Position numbers and translations under genes: made by a program
NCBI RefSeq assembly: GCF_000328765.2
Contig: NC_019954.2
Coordinates: 438,501 to 502,500 of the forward strand
Length of the DNA: 64,000 bases
Direction of reading: 5' to 3'
Source: Tepidanaerobacter acetatoxydans Re1
GTDB taxonomy: Bacteria; Bacillota; Thermosediminibacteria; Thermosediminibacterales; Tepidanaerobacteraceae
Notes under the pieces: generated by a model
What the model was told of the DNA's origin: nothing
Seen by the model: only the letters and a program-made list of their open reading frames with translations
Database searches by the model: none
In this document: positions 47,005 through 64,000 of the stretch, piece after piece
Numbering within the stretch: position 1 is the first letter of the stretch
How the letters are laid out: the number at the start of each line of letters is the position of its first letter

Positions 47005-47460
47005 ATGACTAAAAAGATATGCTTAATTGCCGTTTTACTATGTATAATGCCTAGCACAGCTTTTGCCATGCACATAATGGAAGGATTTTTACCGCCTGTG
47101 TGGGCTGCCGTATGGTATTTATCTGCAATTCCCTTTGTAGTTGTCGGTCTTTCATCAATAAAGAAGTTAATCCGTGAAGATCCCAGCAATAAAATGCTAC
47201 TGGGATTTGTTGGAGCATTTGCCTTTGTGCTGTCGGCCTTGAAACTGCCTTCAGTGACAGGAAGTTGTTCTAACCCTACAGGTGTTGGGCTAGGAGCTAT
47301 CTTGTTTGGGCCTTGGGTTATGAGCGTGATAGCATATAAACTTGCAAAAAAGATGGGAGCATCAAGAAGCGTAGCTGTATTTTTGGCAGCAGCTTTAGGA
47401 GATCTTATGACATATGTTGTTACATCTTTTCAACTGGCAGCGGCCTTTCCAGAGGTCTGA
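47005..47460 (+). pseudogene. cbiM: CbiM cobalt transporter component with internal deletion and lost C-terminus
   Basis: The 151-residue product begins as a normal CbiM: signal sequence, then [34 protein letters not shown] and [14 protein letters not shown]. It then jumps directly to AYKLAKKMG, skipping the roughly 35 residues (LLFQALLLAHGGLTT region) that carry membrane segments in all CbiM proteins. It continues [18 protein letters not shown] and stops at AAAFPEV, losing the last 70 or so residues. The metal-binding His after the signal is present. The internal gap preserves the frame. A working cobalt importer is unlikely unless this is an assembly artefact. Confidence 0.8.
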
Positions 47461-47465
47461 TTATT

Positions 47466-47981
47466 TTGCTTATGGCATGCATTATAACCATCAAAGGTAA
47501 AATATCGCCAAAAACGTATTTGAACTTAATCTTCCTTCCCCTTGCTTTCCTTGGGATGAGCATTTTACCTATAGTGATAAATTTTGGGGCAAGCGCCGAG
47601 CAAAGTCTCATATATTTCCAGGTTTTTCAAACAACCATGTGTGTTATAATATTCAACGAACCTACAGCCTATCTAGATCCTAAGCACTGCCGGATTCTCC
47701 TTGAGACCCTTGATTTGCTACATCAAAGCGGAAAACAGATAATCCTTTCAACACATGATGTTAATTTGGCTTACAGCTGGGCGGATAACATATTAATTGT
47801 CAAGGATGGCAAACTCTTAGAATCGGGAGCACCGGAAGAGATTTTTGAAAATGATGAAATTCTAAATCGGGCTGACCTTCAAAAGCCTATGCTTTTAGAA
47901 GTATATCAAATACTTTTTGAAAAAGGACTTATAGGCAAAAGACAGGCAAAATCAATAGAGGAATTAAGGTGCATACTTTAA
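47466..47981 (+). pseudogene. Chimeric remnant: CbiQ membrane segment fused to the C-terminal half of CbiO
   Basis: The 171-residue frame starts with a CbiQ-like part (KISPKTYLNLIFLPLAFLGM, then INFGAS). At about residue 63 it changes into the second half of a CbiO ATPase: NEPTAYLDPKHCRILLETL, ILSTHDVNLAYSWAD and DGKLLESGAPEEIF. Walker A and the signature motif are absent, and the Walker B aspartate is Asn (NEPTA for DEPTA). cbiN is missing entirely. CbiQ-like coding can be followed in another frame a few codons into the end of cbiM, so the two genes meet at a deletion joint. The locus looks like a cbiMNQO operon after several deletions. Confidence 0.75.
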
Positions 47982-48000: not shown

Positions 48001-49374
48001 ATGAACAGAGGTATAATGATAGCCGGGACCAACAGCGGTTCCGGCAAGACCACCATAAGTCTTGGAATAATGGGCGCTCTTTCCAAAAGGCTTAAAGTCG
48101 TGCCTTTTAAGGTCGGCCCTGACTATATCGATCCTGCTTATCATAAACTCGTAAGCGGGAGTCCATCCTACAATTTAGACCTTCATATGCTGGGTGAAGA
48201 AAGGCTTGTAAAATTATTTTATGAAAAAACCGCGCGGGGAGATATCTCTATAGTAGAAGGTGTGATGGGGCTTTTTGACGGCAAAGATTCTTCGGGATTT
48301 GCCAGTAGCGCTCATGTGGCTAAAATTTTAGGCATACCGGTGATATTGGTTGCGGATGCCGGCGGCATGTCTAGGAGCGCCTCGGCCATGGTTAAAGGCT
48401 ATAAAGATTTTGATCCTGAATTAAACTTAGCCGGAGTTATATTTAATCGTGTGGGGGGAGATAGTCATTTTGAACTTTTGAAGGAATGCGTAGAAAAGGA
48501 TACGGGGCTTTGTGTCCTGGGCTATCTTCCAAAGGATGAAAAACTTGTAATTCCAGAGCGGCCCATGGGTCTTATGCCCCCGGAAGAGATGAAAAACCTT
48601 GAAGCAGGTCTTGAAAGATTAAATTATTTAGTGGAAAAACATATAGATTTAGCCAGGATTTTTACAATTGCAGAGAGTGCTCATATACCTGCCCTGTCTA
48701 ATGAATATAGCAAATCCGCAGATACCGGCGACAAAAAGCCCAAGATTGCAGTTGCCATGGATGATGCCTTTTGTTTTTACTATAACGCTTCCTTAGAGCT
48801 TTTCGAAGAAAAAGGTGCCAAGCTTGTGCCGTTTAGTCCTTTAAAAGATGCCGAGCTTCCGGAAGGGATATCCGGCTTGTACATAGGAGGAGGTTTTCCC
48901 GAAAACTTCGGCCGGCAGCTTAGCCAAAACAATTCTATGAAGGATTCTGTATTTTGTGCCATCAATGCAGGCCTTCCCACATATGCAGAAGGCGGCGGTC
49001 TGATGTATCTTGCAAAGACTGTTTATGATAGATGTGGCAAGGCTTATCCGATGGTCGGTATATTTGATTGCGCAACAGTGATGACAGACAGGCTCCAGAA
49101 TTTTGGATATGTGACGGCAGAAGTGGTAAAGGACAATGTTATTGCATCTTCTGGCACTATAATAACAGGCCAGGAGTTTCACTATTCTAAGATAAATGGT
49201 AATTTGAACAGCGCAAGCTATATTATAAGAAAGCCGGAACAAAACCGTAAGTGGCAATGCGGCTACATTTATAAAAACTGTCTTGCCTCATATATGCATA
49301 TAGATTTTTATGCATATCCTAAGCTTTTGGATAATTTTCTAAGTAAATGCAGGCAAATGGATGATAAGGAGTAA
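48001..49374 (+). CDS. cbiA: Cobyrinate a,c-diamide synthase, lacking the glutaminase cysteine
   Basis: This 457-residue protein has the N-terminal P-loop synthetase domain (GTNSGSGKTTISLG, then KVGPDYIDP and VEGVMGLFDG) and a C-terminal class I glutamine amidotransferase domain (YIGGGFPENF near residue 295). In CbiA the nucleophile lies in AECGGLMYL; here codon 331 (48991-48993) is GGC, giving AEGGGLMYL. The partner His in GQEFHYSK is kept. The synthetase half looks intact, so it might run on free ammonia, or the base may be a sequencing error (TGC to GGC). It amidates the a and c side chains of cobyrinate. Confidence 0.9.
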   Translation: MNRGIMIAGTNSGSGKTTISLGIMGALSKRLKVVPFKVGPDYIDPAYHKLVSGSPSYNLDLHMLGEERLVKLFYEKTARGDISIVEGVMGLFDGKDSSGFASSAHVAKILGIPVILVADAGGMSRSASAMVKGYKDFDPELNLAGVIFNRVGGDSHFELLKECVEKDTGLCVLGYLPKDEKLVIPERPMGLMPPEEMKNLEAGLERLNYLVEKHIDLARIFTIAESAHIPALSNEYSKSADTGDKKPKIAVAMDDAFCFYYNASLELFEEKGAKLVPFSPLKDAELPEGISGLYIGGGFPENFGRQLSQNNSMKDSVFCAINAGLPTYAEGGGLMYLAKTVYDRCGKAYPMVGIFDCATVMTDRLQNFGYVTAEVVKDNVIASSGTIITGQEFHYSKINGNLNSASYIIRKPEQNRKWQCGYIYKNCLASYMHIDFYAYPKLLDNFLSKCRQMDDKE

Positions 49375-49378
49375 AACT

Positions 49379-49753
49379 ATGGATAAAACTTTACTTATTC
49401 TAGCTCACGGCAGTAAAGCCCAATCTACTACTGAAGTAATCTATCAAGTTCGCGAAGAAATTGCAAAAAGGAATTTATATAAGGATGTAAAAATGGCCTT
49501 TATGGAATTTAACCACCCGAATATTTGCGAAGCTTTTGATGAAATTTATAAAGAAGGCTCTAGACAGGTGGTAGCAGTACCCATGTTTTTATTTGAAGGA
49601 AACCACATACGGTATGATATTCCAGAGGAACTTATGAAGGTGAAAAATGCTTATCCAGATTTGGAAATTTCACTTGCAAAGCCAATAGGCTTTGATAAGC
49701 GCATTGCAGATATTTTAATCGAAAGGGCTGCAGAAAAACTATGGGAAATTTAA
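49379..49753 (+). CDS. cbiX: Short CbiX-type sirohydrochlorin cobaltochelatase
   Basis: This 124-residue small CbiX has the chelatase histidine in LILAHGSKAQST near residue 9 and the second in FLFEGNHIRYDIPEE near 75. Short CbiX proteins act as homodimers to insert cobalt into sirohydrochlorin, the committed step of the anaerobic cobalamin path. AAGGAG supports ATG 49379 over an upstream in-frame codon inside cbiA. It overlaps cbiC by 13 bases. Confidence 0.9.
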   Translation: MDKTLLILAHGSKAQSTTEVIYQVREEIAKRNLYKDVKMAFMEFNHPNICEAFDEIYKEGSRQVVAVPMFLFEGNHIRYDIPEELMKVKNAYPDLEISLAKPIGFDKRIADILIERAAEKLWEI

Positions 49754-50394
49754 GCTATGTGAAAACACCTGAAGGCATAGAGAAAAAGAGCTTTGAGATA
49801 ATAGAGGAAAATGTTGACAAATCAAATTTTGATTCTAAGGACTGGAATATTGTTCGAAGAGTTATCCACACTACGGCAGATTTTGAATTTGCTAATTTGC
49901 TAAAATTGTCACCCGGTGCAATCGAAGCAGGGATTTTGGCAATACAAAAAGGATGCCGTATCTATACAGATACCAGGATGGCCGAAGCAGGAATTAATAA
50001 AAAAGCGCTTAAACAGCTGGGATGTGAGGTTCTATGCATGGTAGACGACGTGCAGGTGCTAGAGATGGCAAATCGCGAGGGCATAACCCGTTCCATGGCC
50101 TCCATAATAATGGCCTCCAAATTTCCAGATATAAAGATTTATGTTTTAGGGAATGCCCCTACGGCATTGTTTAAGCTGATTGAACTTATAAGGGAAGGGA
50201 AAGCCTGCCCTGATTTAATAATCGGCGTTCCAGTAGGATTTGTGGGAGCGGCGGAATCAAAAGAGGAGCTTTCTAAGCTTTCGGTTCCACATATAATTAC
50301 AAAAGGACAAAAAGGAGGCAGCACTATAGCTGCTGCCATAGTTAATGCTCTAATGTATATGAGTCTTGAGGAGAAAACCATTAAAAATGGATAA
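49741..50394 (+). CDS. cbiC: Cobalt-precorrin-8 methylmutase
   Basis: This 217-residue CbiC has the catalytic histidine in RRVIHTTADFEF near residue 42, DTRMAEAGI near 80 and the C-terminal VGFVGAAESKEEL and KGGSTIAAAIVNAL. It moves the C-11 methyl group to C-12 to make cobyrinate. It overlaps cbiX at the 5' end and cbiD at the 3' end. Confidence 0.93.
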   Translation: MGNLSYVKTPEGIEKKSFEIIEENVDKSNFDSKDWNIVRRVIHTTADFEFANLLKLSPGAIEAGILAIQKGCRIYTDTRMAEAGINKKALKQLGCEVLCMVDDVQVLEMANREGITRSMASIIMASKFPDIKIYVLGNAPTALFKLIELIREGKACPDLIIGVPVGFVGAAESKEELSKLSVPHIITKGQKGGSTIAAAIVNALMYMSLEEKTIKNG

Positions 50395-51460
50395 GTACAT
50401 CGTAAAGAACGGAAAAAAACTTCGATACGGCTATACTACCGGCAGCTGCGCAGCCGCTGCCGCAAAAGCTGCAACCTTTGCGCTTTTTCACGACAACATC
50501 CCCCAGGAGATTGAAATTGACACCCCAAAAGGCTGGCCGCTTAAACTTCCGATAGCCTATTTTGAAAAAGGGGAAGATTGGTCAAGCTGCGGCATTAAAA
50601 AAGATGGCGGCGACGATCCTGATGTGACGGACGGCCTTATTATCTACTGCAAGGCAGAGCGCGCCGGAATAGGCATTGTCACAAAACCCGGACTTCAAAT
50701 AAAGCCGGGGGAACCTGCCATAAATCCGGTGCCGCGGGCTATGATAAAAAACGAAGTTTGCAAAGTACTTCCCGAGGGCTGTGGTGTAAGGCTTACCATA
50801 AGCATTCCCGGCGGTGAAGAAGTTGCCGAAAGGACTTTTAATCCGATGCTGGGAATTAAGGGAGGGCTTTCGATTATCGGCACTACAGGAATAGTTGAAC
50901 CTATGTCCACCGAGGCCCTAAAGGATACACTGGCAGTTCAATTGTCAATACTTGCAGCCCAAGGACATAAAAAAGTAATCTTGGTGCCGGGCAATTACGG
51001 CAAAAATTATGCACTAAAATCCGGTGAAAATCCGGAGCTTATCGTATCCTATGGCAACTACCTGGGGTTTGCCCTGGAAAAAGTAGTGGAATATGGTTTC
51101 AAAGATGTTTTGTTAATCGGAGATATCGGCAAACTCATTAAAGTAGCCGCAGGCATATTTGATACAACGGGGAAAGTTGCCGATGCCCGCAGTGAGATAA
51201 TGACAGCATATGCAGCATGTTTTGGAGTCACAAAGGATGTGGCGATAAATTTGCTAAATTCTGTTACAACTCGGGAAGCTCTAAATATTATCGAAAAAGC
51301 AGGCATAGATATGGAGAGTTTTAGTAAATTTATTGCTGAAAGAATTGTCGCACGTTGTATGTGGTATACAGGGAAAAGTTTGGATATAGGAGTTAAAATT
51401 TTTTCATTAAATCAAGGTTTTCTGGCAAAAGCCCATGGGAAAGGGGAAAATTCCAATTGA
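50387..51460 (+). CDS. cbiD: Cobalt-precorrin-5B C1-methyltransferase
   Basis: This 357-residue CbiD has the signature YGYTTGSCAAAAAKAA at the N-terminus, DGGDDPDVTDG near 65 and GNYGKNYAL near 205. It methylates C-1 in the anaerobic pathway. The ATG overlaps the cbiC stop region (ATGGATAA). A GAGGAG lies about 20 bases upstream, so coupling to cbiC translation is likely. The end overlaps cbiE by four bases. Confidence 0.93.
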   Translation: MDKYIVKNGKKLRYGYTTGSCAAAAAKAATFALFHDNIPQEIEIDTPKGWPLKLPIAYFEKGEDWSSCGIKKDGGDDPDVTDGLIIYCKAERAGIGIVTKPGLQIKPGEPAINPVPRAMIKNEVCKVLPEGCGVRLTISIPGGEEVAERTFNPMLGIKGGLSIIGTTGIVEPMSTEALKDTLAVQLSILAAQGHKKVILVPGNYGKNYALKSGENPELIVSYGNYLGFALEKVVEYGFKDVLLIGDIGKLIKVAAGIFDTTGKVADARSEIMTAYAACFGVTKDVAINLLNSVTTREALNIIEKAGIDMESFSKFIAERIVARCMWYTGKSLDIGVKIFSLNQGFLAKAHGKGENSN

Positions 51461-52098
51461 TAACTGTGGTAGGCATCGGTCCGGGACATCCTGACTATAT
51501 AACTCCAATTGCTCTAAAAAAGATACAATCTGCCGATGTTATCATAGGCGGCAGGCGGCAGCTTAAAATGTGTGAAGGGGTTTCGTGCGCAAAAATATTG
51601 TTCGATGGCAAATTGGATTTAGAAAAAGCCTTGGATAATCCCGGCAATGTGGTGGTCTTAGCTTCAGGCGATCCGGCGATATACGGCATCCTTGATAAAG
51701 TGCTCAGCTTGCGAAAGAAAGAGGAGATTGAAGTGATTCCCGGCATAAGTTGTATTCAATATATGCTGGGGAAACTTAAGATGCCTATGAAAAATGTTTG
51801 CGCGATAAGCCTTCACGGCCGAGAGCAGGAGCTTGCAGAAAAAGTCAAGCAATATAAATCGGTAGTAGTACTTACCGACAAAATACATACCCCTTGCTAC
51901 ATTGCTCAAAGTTTAAAACAGGCAGGTATTGTTGATGTAAATATATATGTGGGAGAAAATCTATCTTATGAAAATGAAAAAATAAGGGAATTTTCGGTTA
52001 AACAACTTGCCGAAAGTACTCAAAATTTTGACTTAAATGTGGTGGTGATAACAAGGTGTGGCAGTATGGATTCGGCATCCCTGACGAGCTTTTTATAA
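51457..52098 (+). CDS. cbiE: Cobalt-precorrin-7 C5-methyltransferase
   Basis: This 213-residue SAM-dependent tetrapyrrole methyltransferase has the N-terminal VVGIGPGHPDYIT motif, LASGDPAIYG near 67 and VIPGISCIQYML near 90. As in many Firmicutes, CbiE and CbiT are separate proteins, and the next gene encodes CbiT. The start is TTG. Its 3' end overlaps cbiT by about 40 bases. Confidence 0.9.
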   Translation: MITVVGIGPGHPDYITPIALKKIQSADVIIGGRRQLKMCEGVSCAKILFDGKLDLEKALDNPGNVVVLASGDPAIYGILDKVLSLRKKEEIEVIPGISCIQYMLGKLKMPMKNVCAISLHGREQELAEKVKQYKSVVVLTDKIHTPCYIAQSLKQAGIVDVNIYVGENLSYENEKIREFSVKQLAESTQNFDLNVVVITRCGSMDSASLTSFL

Positions 52099-52670
52099 GA
52101 GGCAATGTGCCCATGACAAAGCAAGAGATAAGGGTTTTATCTCTTTCAAAAATGCGGCTCAAAAACGACAGTATAGTTTGGGATATAGGCGCAGGCACAG
52201 GCTCGATTTCGGTAGAAGCAGCAGTGCATTGCAAAGAGGGAAGGGTCTTTGCGATTGAGAAAAATCCGGAGGCGGTAGAGCTGCTCAAAGAGAATCGAAA
52301 TACCTTTGGACTTAAAAATATGGAAATAGTTTGCGGACAAGCGCCTGATGCCCTTTTAAATCTTCCTTGCCCTGATCGCATATTCATAGGCGGGACCGGG
52401 GATTTTACCGAGGAAATTTTAAAAACAGCCGCCGAAAGACTTGCGCCCTGCGGCACTATAGTGGCAAATGCCATAGCCATAGATACCGTATGCAGCTTGC
52501 AGGGGTTTTTTAAGGTAAGATGCTGGGATGAGGATATTACCCTGGCAAATATTTCTACTTCAAAGCAAGTAAAGGGAAAAACAATGATGCTTGCCCACAA
52601 TCCCATTTATATATTTGCAGCAAGAAAACCCGAAGACAGCAAGAAAGCAGAGGAGCCTTTATATGAATAA
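52056..52670 (+). CDS. cbiT: Cobalt-precorrin-6B C15-methyltransferase (decarboxylating)
   Basis: This 204-residue protein opens with GIPDELFIRGNVPMTKQEIR, the usual CbiT N-terminus, followed by the class I SAM motif VWDIGAGTGSISVEAA near residue 42 and FIGGTGDFTEEIL near 109. It methylates C-15 and removes the C-12 acetate carboxyl. GTG at 52056 lies inside cbiE, with GGTGGTGA upstream. It overlaps cbiL by eight bases. Confidence 0.92.
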   Translation: MWQYGFGIPDELFIRGNVPMTKQEIRVLSLSKMRLKNDSIVWDIGAGTGSISVEAAVHCKEGRVFAIEKNPEAVELLKENRNTFGLKNMEIVCGQAPDALLNLPCPDRIFIGGTGDFTEEILKTAAERLAPCGTIVANAIAIDTVCSLQGFFKVRCWDEDITLANISTSKQVKGKTMMLAHNPIYIFAARKPEDSKKAEEPLYE

Positions 52671-53346
52671 ATCAGGTAAGTTTTATGGAATCGGAGTGGG
52701 ACCGGGAGATCCGGCGCTCATTACTATGAAAGCCGCACAGATTTTATCTAAAGTGGATATGGTCATAGCTCCTGCGGCAGACAAAGAAAGCTTGGCTTTA
52801 AAGATAGCCCAGCCCTACATCAATTGTAAAGTTATAGAGATGAATTTTCCCATGATTAGCAATAAAAATACACTAAATGACATTTGGGACAAAAACGTTA
52901 AGACCATTCAAGAAATTCTCCAAGAAGGCAACGACACTGCGTTTATAACATTGGGAGATCCCATGATATACAGCACTTATACATATATATTATCCCGCCT
53001 TTGCGGGTATGAAATTGAAACAATTCCGGGAATAACATCTTTTTGCGCCGCCGCATCTAAGGTCAATATCCCCATAGCAGAAGGAGATGCTCCCTTTGCC
53101 GTAATACCTGTTAAAGATAAAAAATTACTTGAAAAAACTCTAAAGGATTTTGACAATGTTATTTTGATGAAAATATCAAGAAATTACGATGAAGTAGTAA
53201 GAGCTCTAAAGGAAAACGGCTTTTGCGCAGTGCTCATAACCCACTGCGGTCAGGAAGATGAAAGGATAGAATTTGATTTAGATAAATATTTGGGCAGGGG
53301 CGTAAGCTACCTTTCCCTGATTATTGCTTGGAGGTATAGAAAGTGA
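52663..53346 (+). CDS. cbiL: Cobalt-precorrin-2 C20-methyltransferase
   Basis: This 227-residue methyltransferase has YGIGVGPGDPALITMKA at the N-terminus, TLGDPMIYSTY near 89 and TIPGITSFCAAASK near 113. It adds the C-20 methyl, later lost on ring contraction. The frame extends into cbiT, but GAGGAGCC before ATG 52663 gives the typical start. GTGA overlap joins it to cbiF. Confidence 0.92.
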   Translation: MNKSGKFYGIGVGPGDPALITMKAAQILSKVDMVIAPAADKESLALKIAQPYINCKVIEMNFPMISNKNTLNDIWDKNVKTIQEILQEGNDTAFITLGDPMIYSTYTYILSRLCGYEIETIPGITSFCAAASKVNIPIAEGDAPFAVIPVKDKKLLEKTLKDFDNVILMKISRNYDEVVRALKENGFCAVLITHCGQEDERIEFDLDKYLGRGVSYLSLIIAWRYRK

Positions 53347-54083
53347 TTTATTTTATCGGCGCCGGTCCCGGTGATGTAGAACTTATTACTATAAAGGGTA
53401 AAAAGCTTTTGGAAAATTGCGATGTAGTTATATATGCAGGCTCGCTTGTAAACCCTGAGCTGCTAAAATATGCGAAAGGCGAAGCAAAGATTTATAACAG
53501 TGCTACGATGAATCTTGAGGAAATCATCGATGCCATGAAAGATGCTTTTGAAAAAGGAGCAGATGTGGCAAGACTTCATACGGGAGATCCTTCTATTTAT
53601 GGGGCAATAAGGGAACAGATGGAAGCTCTTGATAAACTTGCGATACCCTATGAAGTAATTCCGGGTGTCAGCTCATTTAGCGCTGCCGGTGCAGTATTAA
53701 AGCGGGAACTTACCGTGCCCGGACAAAGCCAGACCATCATACTGACCAGAGCAGAAGGCAGAACACCGGTTCCCGAAGAGGAAAGCTTAGATGCTTTGGC
53801 AAAACATAAAGCAACTATGGCTATTTTCCTCAGTATAAATCAGATTGGAAAAATTGCAGGAGACTTGGCAAAGGTTTATGGTCCAGATGCCCCTGCCGCT
53901 GTTGTATATAAAGCCACCTGGGAGGACCAAAAGATTGTACAGGGCACTCTTTCAGATATTGCAGAAAAAGTAAAAGAAGCGGGAATTTGCAAGACAGCAC
54001 TGATATTGGTAGGAAATTTCTTAAGTGATGAATATGACTTCTCATGCCTCTATAACAAAACATTCAGCCATGAATACAGGTAA
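53343..54083 (+). CDS. cbiF: Cobalt-precorrin-4 C11-methyltransferase
   Basis: This 246-residue enzyme has IYFIGAGPGDVELITIKG at the N-terminus, LHTGDPSIYGAIREQ near 78, VIPGVSSFSAAGAVL near 103 and ELTVPGQSQTIILTR near 122, all typical of CbiF. It methylates C-11. The start GTG overlaps the cbiL stop. Confidence 0.93.
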   Translation: MIYFIGAGPGDVELITIKGKKLLENCDVVIYAGSLVNPELLKYAKGEAKIYNSATMNLEEIIDAMKDAFEKGADVARLHTGDPSIYGAIREQMEALDKLAIPYEVIPGVSSFSAAGAVLKRELTVPGQSQTIILTRAEGRTPVPEEESLDALAKHKATMAIFLSINQIGKIAGDLAKVYGPDAPAAVVYKATWEDQKIVQGTLSDIAEKVKEAGICKTALILVGNFLSDEYDFSCLYNKTFSHEYR

Positions 54084-54087
54084 GAAA

Positions 54088-55134
54088 ATGAAGACAGCCA
54101 TTATTGCTATAACAAAAAACGGAATAAATATTGCCGAGAAAATCAGAGCAGGCGTCGGCGGCGATGTTTATGTAAATAGTCGGTTTTTAAATGAGGCTAA
54201 TTTTAAAAACTATTTTCCGATAAAAACCTCATTTAAGGATTTTGTCCGCCAAATATTTTCAAGCTATGACGGCCTGATTTTTATAACAGCTGCCGGTATT
54301 GCGACTCGGGCGATTGCGCCGGTAATTTGCGACAAAAGAACGGATCCGGCGGTTGTAGTGGTGGACGAACAGGGGAGATTTTCTATAAGCTTGCTTTCCG
54401 GGCATCTTGGCGGGGCCAATGAACTTGCATCAAAAGTGGCTCAGGTTCTAAAATGTATGCCGGTAATTACTACTGCCAGCGACATTCAGGGTTTTGAGAG
54501 CATAGATGTTTTGGCCAAGAAACTTGGCCTTTATATTGACAATTTCTCGGATTTGCCGAAGGTGAGCGCCTGCCTTGTAAATGGTGAGAAGCTGGCATTA
54601 TCGGTGGAAAAAGGCTTCCCATATGAAAAGCTGGCACATCTTATAAAGCGGTCAGAAGTATTTTCACATGATTTGCCTAAAGATGCCAAAGCTGCTGTAT
54701 TTGTAACGGATGAAGAAATATTGCCTCCTCCCGTACCTTATGTAATCTTACGGCCTCAAAATACGGTGCTCGGTATAGGCACAAGAAAGGGCGCGCCTTA
54801 TGAGGCACTGCTGGCGCAAGTCAAAATGGCTTTAAAGGATTTTAACTTGAGCGAAAAAAGCGTGGGCTGTATTGCGTCAGTGGATATAAAAAGAGAAGAA
54901 AAATGTATACTGCAATTGTCTGAGTGCTTAAATGCGCCGCTTAAACTATATACCGGCGTACAGCTTGCAGAATACGAAAACCGTTTCCCTTGCTCCCCAT
55001 TTGTCAAAAAAACCGTAGGCGCAGGCTGTGTGGCAAGACCGGCAGCTTATATGGCAAGCCGAGGAGGAGATGAATTGGGGTATTATACATCGAAGGGCAT
55101 TACTTTGGCGGTATATAAAAGGAGGACATCATGA
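54088..55134 (+). CDS. cbiG: Cobalt-precorrin-5A hydrolase
   Basis: This 348-residue CbiG has an N-terminal domain (IIAITKNGINIAEKI, then GLIFITAAGIATRAIAP) and a conserved core (VVDEQGRFSISLLSGHLGGA near residue 92). The C-terminal domain has LGIGTRKGAPYEA and VASIDIK-like SVDIKREE. It opens the delta-lactone and releases acetaldehyde. Upstream in-frame ATGs at 54025 and 54070 exist, but 54088 gives the family N-terminus. Confidence 0.9.
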   Translation: MKTAIIAITKNGINIAEKIRAGVGGDVYVNSRFLNEANFKNYFPIKTSFKDFVRQIFSSYDGLIFITAAGIATRAIAPVICDKRTDPAVVVVDEQGRFSISLLSGHLGGANELASKVAQVLKCMPVITTASDIQGFESIDVLAKKLGLYIDNFSDLPKVSACLVNGEKLALSVEKGFPYEKLAHLIKRSEVFSHDLPKDAKAAVFVTDEEILPPPVPYVILRPQNTVLGIGTRKGAPYEALLAQVKMALKDFNLSEKSVGCIASVDIKREEKCILQLSECLNAPLKLYTGVQLAEYENRFPCSPFVKKTVGAGCVARPAAYMASRGGDELGYYTSKGITLAVYKRRTS

Positions 55135-55862
55135 GCTGGATAAAAGCGGTGGGTATAGGACCGGGTTCTTTGGAACACATGACTTTGCAAGCCATGGATG
55201 CTTTAAAGGAATGTGATGTGGTAATAGGATATAATACATACTTAGATTTAATAAGGCCGATTATTCAAGAGAAGCAAATCATAGGCTCAGGTATGCGCCA
55301 TGAAGTTTCAAGGTGCAAGAAGGCCATAGAGCTTGCAAATGAAGGGAAAAAAGTCTGTGTAATCAGCAGCGGCGATCCCGGAGTATATGGCATGGCAGGT
55401 CTTTTGCTGGAACTTTCAGCAAAGGAGGGCTTAGATATAAAAATTGAAGTGATACCAGGCATTAGCGCCGTAAATATGGCGGCGGCCCTTTTAGGGGCTC
55501 CTCTAATGCACGATTTTGCACTGATTAGCCTTTCAGACCATCTGACGCCATGGGAAGTTATAGAGAAAAGGCTGGATTCGGCAGCTCAGGCAGACTTTGT
55601 CATAGCCTTATACAACCCCAGAAGCCATGAGCGAGAATATCATTTGGATACTGCGCTTGAAATTATATCAAAATATAAGCCTAAGGGTACTCCTGTGGGC
55701 ATTGTGAAAAATGCATCCAGAGATAAAGAAAAGGTGATATTTGCAACACTGGAATCGGTGCCGATAGAGGATATTGATATGACGAGTATTGTAATTATCG
55801 GCAACAAGAACACATTTACGATAGGTGGCAAAATGATTACACCGCGAGGGTATAAGCTATGA
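55131..55862 (+). CDS. cbiH: Cobalt-precorrin-3B C17-methyltransferase
   Basis: This 243-residue methyltransferase has AVGIGPGSLEHMTLQA at the N-terminus, SSGDPGVYGMAG near 80, VIPGISAVNMAAALLGAPL near 107 and ALYNPRSHER near 155, as in CbiH/CobJ. It methylates C-17 and contracts the ring. The ATG overlaps the cbiG stop and its own end overlaps cbiJ. Confidence 0.93.
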   Translation: MSWIKAVGIGPGSLEHMTLQAMDALKECDVVIGYNTYLDLIRPIIQEKQIIGSGMRHEVSRCKKAIELANEGKKVCVISSGDPGVYGMAGLLLELSAKEGLDIKIEVIPGISAVNMAAALLGAPLMHDFALISLSDHLTPWEVIEKRLDSAAQADFVIALYNPRSHEREYHLDTALEIISKYKPKGTPVGIVKNASRDKEKVIFATLESVPIEDIDMTSIVIIGNKNTFTIGGKMITPRGYKL

Positions 55863-56614
55863 TAATGGTATTGGCAGGTACGAAGGATGGGCGGATTTTA
55901 TCTGAAAGGCTTTGCAAAAAAGGACTTAAAGTTTTAGCCACAACGGTTACTGAATATGGCAGCCGCCTGTTTGGTCACGGAATCGAGCTTAAGACAGGTC
56001 CTTTAAACGAGGATAGTCTGGAACAAATAATCAAGGAAAACAATATAAAACTCATCGTCGATGCAACACATCCTTATGCAAAAGACATAAGCGAAACAGC
56101 CATAGCCGTATCCTGCAAATGCAATATAGAGTATCTTCGCTATGAACGGGAAAGCAGCAAAACCGAATATTCTAATATGATATATGTAAAAGACATAGCT
56201 GAAGCCATAAAGGTTTTAGAAAAATATCAGCGAATTTTCCTGACCACAGGCAGCAAAAATCTGGACAAGTTTGCAAAGCTTATGAGCATGGGTAAATACC
56301 TTATTGCGCGAGTGCTGCCAAAGAGTGAAGTCCTAAAAAAATGCGAAGATTTGGGGTTTGCTCCGGAAAATATCATAGCAGCAAAAGGGCCTTTCAGTAT
56401 GGAAATGAACTGTCAAATGTTTAAGGAATACAGGGCGGATGTAGTAGTTACAAAAGACAGCGGAGTTATCGGCGGTGTGCCGGAAAAAATCACAGCCGCC
56501 TCAAAGCTTAATCTTCCAATCCTGCTGATTGAGCGGCCATCTGTAAATTACCCCAATGTAGCAAATGACATGGATAAAGTTATTTGCGAAATTTGCAACA
56601 GATTTCTTATGTGA
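55859..56614 (+). CDS. cbiJ: Cobalt-precorrin-6A reductase
   Basis: This 251-residue CbiJ has MVLAGTKDGRILSERL at the N-terminus, VDATHPYAKDISETA near 66, LTTGSKNLDKF near 119 and VVTKDSGVIGG near 197. It reduces the macrocycle with NADH or NADPH. ATG at 55865 is an alternative start. A 40-base gap follows before hemA, the longest within the operon. Confidence 0.92.
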   Translation: MIMVLAGTKDGRILSERLCKKGLKVLATTVTEYGSRLFGHGIELKTGPLNEDSLEQIIKENNIKLIVDATHPYAKDISETAIAVSCKCNIEYLRYERESSKTEYSNMIYVKDIAEAIKVLEKYQRIFLTTGSKNLDKFAKLMSMGKYLIARVLPKSEVLKKCEDLGFAPENIIAAKGPFSMEMNCQMFKEYRADVVVTKDSGVIGGVPEKITAASKLNLPILLIERPSVNYPNVANDMDKVICEICNRFLM

Positions 56615-63321: not shown

Positions 63322-64000
63322 ATGCAGGTATTTATTGAGAAAGATTATTCAGCCATGAGTAAAAAGGCAGCTCAAATTTTTGCTAATGAAATACAACAAA
63401 AACCTGATTTAGTTCTTGGGCTTGCTACAGGAAGCACTCCTATAGGGACATACCAGGAGCTTATCCGGATGCATAAGGAAGAAGGATTGGATTTTTCCAA
63501 GGCAGTATCCTTTAATCTAGACGAATATTATGGCCTTGCTTCTGATAATCCCCAGAGCTATAATTATTTCATGTTCGAGAATCTTTTCAACCATGTAAAT
63601 ATAAAAAAAGAAAATGTCCACATACCAAACGGCTTGGTATCAGATGTCGAAACTTACTGCAAACAGTACGATGAAGAAATCGAAAAATATGGCGGCATAG
63701 ACTTACAACTACTGGGAATCGGTGTAAATGGTCATATAGGTTTTAATGAGCCTGCAGAGGAATTGGTTCTAGGAACACACCTAACCGACCTTACAGAAGA
63801 TACAATTAAAGCAAATTCCCGTTTTTTTGATTCGCCAGAAGAAGTTCCCACAAAAGCTATAACCATGGGTATTGGCTCCATAATGAAAGCCAAAAAAATT
63901 CTGCTGTTGGCAAGTGGTAAGAATAAAGCCGAAATCATGGCAAAACTTCTTAATAGCGATGTTGTAACTACAAAAGTTCCCGCGTCATTACTCATGCTTC
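63322..64000 (+). CDS. nagB: Glucosamine-6-phosphate deaminase (3' truncated by window edge)
   Basis: The 226 residues visible are most of a typical 240-residue NagB. Motifs are [16 protein letters not shown] near residue 34, FNLDEYYGL near 64, [14 protein letters not shown] near 132 (catalytic Asp/His region) and [12 protein letters not shown] near 190. It converts glucosamine-6-phosphate to fructose-6-phosphate and ammonia. GGAGGGG precedes the ATG. It begins a new unit unrelated to the tetrapyrrole operon. Confidence 0.93.

Follow-up and report, generated by a model that had tools for sequence, protein, structure and literature searches.

The window analysed here is a stretch of 64,000 nucleotides from Tepidanaerobacter acetatoxydans Re1 (contig NC_019954.2, positions 438,501 to 502,500). 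It holds cbiA, the gene for cobyrinic acid a,c-diamide synthase, between a damaged cobalt transporter and a run of corrin-ring genes. The features relevant to this analysis are given in window coordinates:

47005..47981, + strand: damaged cobalt transporter, a short CbiM and the remnant of a CbiQ/CbiO fusion (from the sequence)
48001..49374, + strand: cbiA, cobyrinic acid a,c-diamide synthase, an open reading frame of 457 aa with NCBIfam and Pfam matches
Same frame, + strand: CbiA domains by profile matches, synthetase at about residues 1-245 and GATase_3 at about residues 248-436
48562..48564, + strand: codon CCC, Pro188, a position that is nearly always His in Cys-type CbiA (alignment)
48991..48993, + strand: codon GGC, Gly331, where relatives have the GATase nucleophile Cys (sequence and alignment)
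49297..49299, + strand: codon of His433, a kept catalytic-type His (sequence and relatives)
49361..56614, + strand: corrin-ring genes cbiX, cbiC, cbiD, cbiE, cbiT, cbiL, cbiF, cbiG, cbiH and cbiJ (read from the sequence)
63322..64000, + strand: nagB, glucosamine-6-phosphate deaminase, cut by the window end (profile and sequence)

The product of cbiA matches the NCBIfam model PRK01077 (cobyrinic acid a,c-diamide synthase) with 506 bits over residues 4-435, the cut-off being 254, and a profile search also finds the Pfam GATase_3 domain. Its synthetase motifs are intact (GTNSGSGKTT of the P-loop domain, and DYIDPAYH), and cbi genes follow downstream, among which the identity of cbiD alone is backed by a profile. 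Profile, motifs and gene neighbourhood assign the protein to the CbiA/CobB cobyrinic acid a,c-diamide synthases. It is the single CbiA of the genome, which consists of one contig of 2,761,252 bases. A sequence search for a solved structure of a CbiA relative found none.

The nucleophile position of CbiA

The preliminary description of this locus reported that the amidotransferase motif AECGGLMYL reads AEGGGLMYL, and the sequence confirms it, with GGC at 48991-48993. The rest of the glutaminase domain is kept, as had also been claimed: His433 (in LASYMHIDF) is present, and among the 30 strongly conserved columns of the GATase domain a single one has changed. Compared with a functional class-I (triad) GATase, CbiA has the catalytic His and carries Gly331 in place of the catalytic Cys. 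Among 74 aligned Cys-type CbiA loci, residue 331 is Cys in every one; 72 columns are conserved at ≥90% across these loci, 30 of them in the GATase domain, and C331 and H188 are the only conserved columns that differ in all six Gly genomes described below. Position 188 is His in 96% of Cys-type CbiA and Pro in exactly these six genomes. The Cys-type sister L007 retains His188, as does L010, a further family protein with Gly at the nucleophile position, and two methanogen Gly-type loci that were checked (L054, L058) have Tyr. His188 may belong to glutamine coupling in CbiA. His433 is retained by all Gly-type family genomes read, and CbiA has lost one catalytic residue while holding the remainder of its GATase domain.

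A different form of the change is found in five archaeal loci named Methanimicrococcus or Methanosarcinales (L054, L055, L057, L058, L059), in which CbiA reads GEGAGL and also lacks the His, with Gln or Arg instead. It is an independent loss, in archaea.

A search of the family's genomes found a CbiA match in 10 of 13. Alignment with close relatives, which had been proposed as a check, places Gly in the only CbiA of six genomes from four genera (G000, the window's genome, and G011, G012, G010, G006 and G007), at 66-97% identity to the window protein and with full-length frames in all six. The separately assembled Tepidanaerobacter sp. EBM-38 (locus L014) has the same Gly in a 97% identical CbiA, and further genera have it at 66-73% identity. 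Three family genomes have Cys (G001, the nearest Cys relative at about 57% identity, G008 and G009), and G004 has two copies, L010 with Gly and L011, which starts near a contig end, with Cys.

This distribution bears on the simplest alternative, that Gly331 is a sequencing error or that Gly codons are read as Cys at these sites. The same Gly in L014 and in further genera shows that it is not a sequencing error. Codon reassignment is countered by the use of GGC, GGT, GGG and GGA at the nucleophile position across the clade, and by the TGT codons for the Cys of two other amidotransferase relatives of the window's genome, GatD and a C26-type protein. Both forms of this explanation are rejected as virtually impossible.

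Selection on the gene was estimated by the pairwise Nei-Gojobori method. Within the Gly clade, omega (dN/dS) is about 0.05-0.15 in both CbiA domains where it could be computed. The dN ratio of the GATase to the synthetase domain is 0.71-0.94, apart from the closest pair (2.97), in which dN is tiny; the Cys pair L008/L009 gives 1.65 for comparison. The GATase domain is therefore evolving no faster than the synthetase domain, the closest pair excepted. By these estimates, glycine is fixed in CbiA across four genera under purifying selection. Omega and the conserved columns both indicate a GATase fold that is kept and constrained without its nucleophile, the pattern of an ammonia-only synthetase.

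The preliminary description had also suggested early decay together with the transporter next door, CbiA drifting toward a pseudogene. The transporter is indeed damaged: CbiM is short, and the start of CbiQ is fused to the end of CbiO through a deletion. Parts of the cobalamin gene set are also reported missing (PMC4374699), and the window CbiD (50366-51460) lacks a 10-residue stretch that is present in the 98% identical CbiD of L014 (7366-8490), an in-frame deletion particular to the window strain. The transporter deletion is, however, common to the window (47005-47981) and L014 (4004-4980) only, whereas L003 (2891-4350) combines whole CbiQ and CbiO frames with Gly in CbiA, so the glycine is older than the deletion. 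Full-length frames in six genomes of four genera and the low omega run against decay, as does the same change in five other, partly essential enzymes of the genome. Because of the clade-wide conservation and omega, decay is rejected as very unlikely.

Amidotransferases and glutamine synthetase in the genome and family

The window's genome was searched with two class-I GATase families (including PF00117) and with GATase_6. Nine class-I GATase proteins were found. The six of them that supply a synthetase each carry Gly at the nucleophile position: CbiA (AEGGG), CbiP (LGMGSSYP), PurQ (GIGNGFQ), TrpG (GVGLGHQ), PyrG (GIGIGMQ) and GuaA (AIGYGMQ). Their identities were checked with NCBIfam, where TrpG exceeds the TrpG/PabA subfamily cut-off. 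The other three class-I relatives retain Cys; these are GatD (the MurT partner), a C26-type gamma-glutamyl hydrolase and a protein that we take from its sequence to be PfpI-like. The class-II enzyme PurF also retains its Cys (ACGVFG).

Some amidotransferases are missing altogether. CarA and HisH were not found by the PF00117 search, which finds both in sister genomes, where they were named by reading frames and motifs. GlmS is apparently absent as well, since the GATase_6 search matched PurF alone. The nagB enzyme, run backward with ammonia, could make glucosamine-6-phosphate in its place. A search for GatA by synteny with the genes of G012 found none in 120 kb near pyrG.

The breadth of the change bears on whether CbiA has acquired a substitute nucleophile and still hydrolyses glutamine. 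The sole candidate is Cys258 (in AFCFYY), which is present in all six Gly genomes and is Asn in the Cys sister L007. It also occurs in 10 of 74 CbiA proteins with a normal nucleophile, however, so that it is not tied to nucleophile loss, and it cannot account for the five other enzymes in which Cys has likewise become Gly. This explanation is rejected as scarcely credible.

The family divides along the same line. Every PyrG, GuaA, TrpG, CarA and HisH motif read in the sister genera g2 and g6 (G001, G002, G008, G009) has Cys. On the window's side, Gly is found in PyrG of G000, G011, G012, G010, G004 and G003, in GuaA of G000, G011, G012, G005 and G004, and in TrpG of G000 and G012; PurQ and CbiP were read there only in G000. 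The sweep of six enzymes is thus seen only in the window's genome, and the readable parts match in its relatives. There are two exceptions: PyrG of G007 keeps Cys, and the PyrG motif of G005 is broken by a gap and a stop.

Glutamine synthetase follows these lines. A search with PF00120 shows it to be absent from 7 of 9 Gly-side family genomes, the window's among them and several of the nine incomplete, and present twice in each of the four sisters that keep Cys. Published work on Re1 agrees, reporting that it lacks both glutamine synthetase and an ammonium transporter and that it grows at up to 1 M ammonium (PMC4374699). The ammonia-tolerant Syntrophaceticus schinkii and Clostridium ultunense are also reported to be without the enzyme, and two thermophilic species to have it (PMC5924567). 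Within the family, G012 and G004 have one glutamine synthetase gene each although their GATases have Gly. The G012 enzyme may not be a simple ortholog of the sister genes, because its identity to either sister paralogue is about 61-64% and the two paralogues share about 72-73% with each other; the G004 enzyme has about 43-45% identity to them. In G012 (L386, C8:206000-216000) the glutamine synthetase gene directly adjoins frames that read as gatA- and gatB-like, and the amidase motifs of GatA look intact by reading.

The enzymes that keep Cys allow another explanation, in which glutamine would remain the real donor and a separate glutaminase would free ammonia from it in trans, with GatD, the C26-type hydrolase and PurF as the proteins still equipped with the nucleophile. 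Against it, no glutamine synthetase is present to supply glutamine and ammonium is plentiful, so there would be no reason to hydrolyse glutamine for ammonia; nor is a partner glutaminase gene seen beside cbiA in the window. Supply in trans is considered very unlikely.

GuaA, PyrG and glutamine synthetase across the phylum

A DNA pattern for the Gly forms of GuaA and PyrG was matched against 398 phylum genomes, and tblastn was then applied. The pattern occurs at 51 places in 47 genomes. Of these places, 32 were read (30 loci and two more) and four belong to GuaA and PyrG of G000 and G011, described above; the other 15 make the Gly cases a lower bound. GuaA carries Gly in at least six further genomes from six families (G105, G122, G142, G195, G252, G365). 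In G142, a neighbouring CarA-like frame also reads GIGLGH. The C26-type hydrolase-like proteins of L180, L181 and L182 read GIGRGMQ, with Gly for Cys, and beside each lies a second C26-like frame that keeps Cys.

Widely across the phylum, the GuaA glutaminase and glutamine synthetase tend to be lost together. Glutamine synthetase is present in 345 of the 398 genomes and absent, by set difference, in 53. GuaA was looked for in all 53, comprising five whose GuaA had been read above (G000, G011, G105, G122, G195) and 48 others. There was no match in six. Of the 47 matched, 41 have lost the glutaminase site or domain: the nucleophile or its motif is gone in 12, and all or half of the domain in 29. 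GuaA is intact in four (G241, G401, G024, G269); G169 has the Cys and no His, and the G121 gene is cut by a contig end. In G209 a run of N lies upstream. As a comparison, every fifth genome with glutamine synthetase was taken (70 of 345), and GuaA was found in 66, intact in 59 and without site or domain in seven. The difference (41/47 against 7/66) gives a Fisher p of about 2e-18, or about 7e-17 with the two doubtful cases counted as intact, in a test that ignores kinship.

The pairing is repeated within families. Eleven (f3, f35, f25, f65, f52, f32, f29, f106, f45, f14, f11) show loss in genomes without the synthetase and an intact GuaA in genomes with it, and no family in the same list shows the reverse. 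Family membership was the basis for choosing a further 32 sister genomes that have glutamine synthetase; these stand outside the Fisher test as such, some overlapping the every-fifth sample. Their GuaA is intact in 23 (including G243), lost in eight (G150, G171, G115, G138, G075, G019, G021, G211) and without a match in one (G168); G150, G075 and G211 match glutamine synthetase weakly.

The idea that GuaA is split, with a second subunit standing in for the missing domain, is rejected: no Cys-bearing GATase frame lies nearby in the 22 shortened-GuaA loci examined, from 19 genomes without glutamine synthetase and three with it, one locus (G308) reaching a contig edge. For the remaining 10 among the 29 shortened GuaA, the class was assigned from match start and frame length only. 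Four genomes with glutamine synthetase (G054, G255, G325, G335) encode a full-length Cys-type GuaA together with a second GuaA that lacks the glutaminase domain.

PyrG behaves differently. Among 51 genomes searched, nine had no match, the G140 match lay at a contig end, and 41 were read, all outside the window's family and without glutamine synthetase. Cys is kept in 38 of them and replaced by Ser in three (G323, G187, G172). A rule by which absence of glutamine synthetase entails loss of all class-I nucleophiles is therefore rejected. PyrG with Ser for the nucleophile Cys was read at four loci, L360, L364, L366 and L377 (G323, G187, G172 and G150).

Where GuaA replacements were found outside the Gly pattern, 10 of 11 are Gly and one is Ser. 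A single base change leads from a Cys codon to Ser by two routes and to Gly by one. The backbone is strained at the nucleophile elbow, and glycine relieves the strain; on this general background, strain relief likely explains why Gly rather than Ser replaces Cys in GuaA.

Free ammonia as the probable nitrogen donor

Class-I glutaminases require Cys to form the glutamyl thioester, and many of the synthetases that they feed accept ammonia with a millimolar Km. With Gly for the nucleophilic Cys, the glutaminase half of CbiA would be chemically dead and the synthetase half still working: no glutamyl thioester could form, and the activated carboxylate would therefore be amidated by free ammonia. 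The GATase fold would be kept as a structural part, ammonia reaching the synthetases from outside it. In the proposed course of events, a lineage living in ammonium-rich digesters lost glutamine synthetase in most of its members; as the need for glutamine as nitrogen donor went, class-I nucleophiles became glycine in six enzymes, and CarA, HisH and probably GlmS would be missing as part of the same genome-wide change. The ammonium levels of digesters would suffice for synthetases with a millimolar Km. The relaxed need, perhaps together with better use of ammonia without Cys, would be the cause.

The preliminary description had proposed that CbiA is limited to free ammonia. This part of its reading stands, well supported by six altered enzymes, the missing glutamine synthetase and growth at up to 1 M ammonium, with the enzymology following by prediction; the part that invoked early decay with the transporter does not. 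It had further pointed to nicotinate and amino acids as sources of the ammonia. Nicotinate as a particular source is not needed because the habitat itself is rich in ammonium. Since the nucleophile is lost in six enzymes and there is no glutamine synthetase gene, free ammonia has probably taken the place of glutamine in making the products of these enzymes. Several observations weigh against this account: PurF and GatD of the window's genome keep Cys, so that either some glutamine must still be consumed or something else preserves these sites; G012 and G004 combine glutamine synthetase with Gly GATases; the PyrG of G007 keeps Cys; and beyond the family, PyrG mostly keeps Cys without the synthetase and GuaA is at times lost with it. 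On balance, it is very likely that CbiA and the five other enzymes are ammonia-only synthetases in a glutamine-poor, ammonium-rich cell, as part of a genome-wide change.

The usual teaching is that nucleotides, tryptophan and corrins universally receive their nitrogen from glutamine, and that such enzymes work at low ammonia because of their channelled glutaminase domains. The broader proposal, which we regard as reasonably likely, is that a free-living bacterium has nearly glutamine-independent biosynthesis with ammonia as its general nitrogen donor, and that a genome's loss of glutamine synthetase is, repeatedly across the phylum, a predictor that its GuaA glutaminase is lost too, whether through Gly substitution or through deletion of the domain. 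If so, GuaA glutaminase loss would be a sequence marker for ammonia-dependent lifestyles, making the question testable across metagenomes, and the lineage would offer a natural test of the need for channelling where ammonia abounds. It would also add to the few enzymes credited with free-ammonia use in vivo, and help to account for the dependence of such syntrophs on ammonium-rich digesters. Most targets of glutamine-analogue inhibitors such as DON and acivicin should be gone from these cells.

Elements of this arrangement are known from other systems. The syntrophic acetate oxidisers S. schinkii and C. ultunense resemble T. acetatoxydans in lacking glutamine synthetase, a published trait of all three, and the passages on these syntrophs do not mention amidotransferase nucleophiles (PMC4374699, PMC5924567). 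A search of the open-access literature found no report of genome-wide loss of class-I nucleophiles. In the C89A variant of Plasmodium GMP synthetase, glutamine is no longer used once the Cys is removed, the Km for NH4Cl drops from 19 mM to 8 mM and kcat does not suffer (PMC4673825, Table 2), so that ammonia use is kept or improved; the replacement there is a laboratory Ala, and here a natural Gly. Single-domain NadE, described as the second case of free-ammonia use in vivo after glutamine synthetase, is likewise an amidating synthetase working on free ammonia, as is proposed here. Unlike the present enzymes, it has no glutaminase domain and is regarded as ancestral (PMC3376133). Table 1 of the same work has all surveyed GuaA and PyrG fused to a glutaminase, in contrast to the shortened and Gly-type GuaA seen here. 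Tetrapod carbamoyl phosphate synthetase CPS I likewise keeps the GATase fold with its catalytic Cys replaced and uses free ammonia only, in a high-ammonia setting (PMC7657897, PMC4655335). CPS I is, however, one enzyme of animal mitochondria, with Ser in the human form (PMC4655335), whereas the present case involves six enzymes, always with Gly, in a bacterium without glutamine synthetase. By analogy, the mode of working would be the same as in CPS I and NadE, but spread over a genome.
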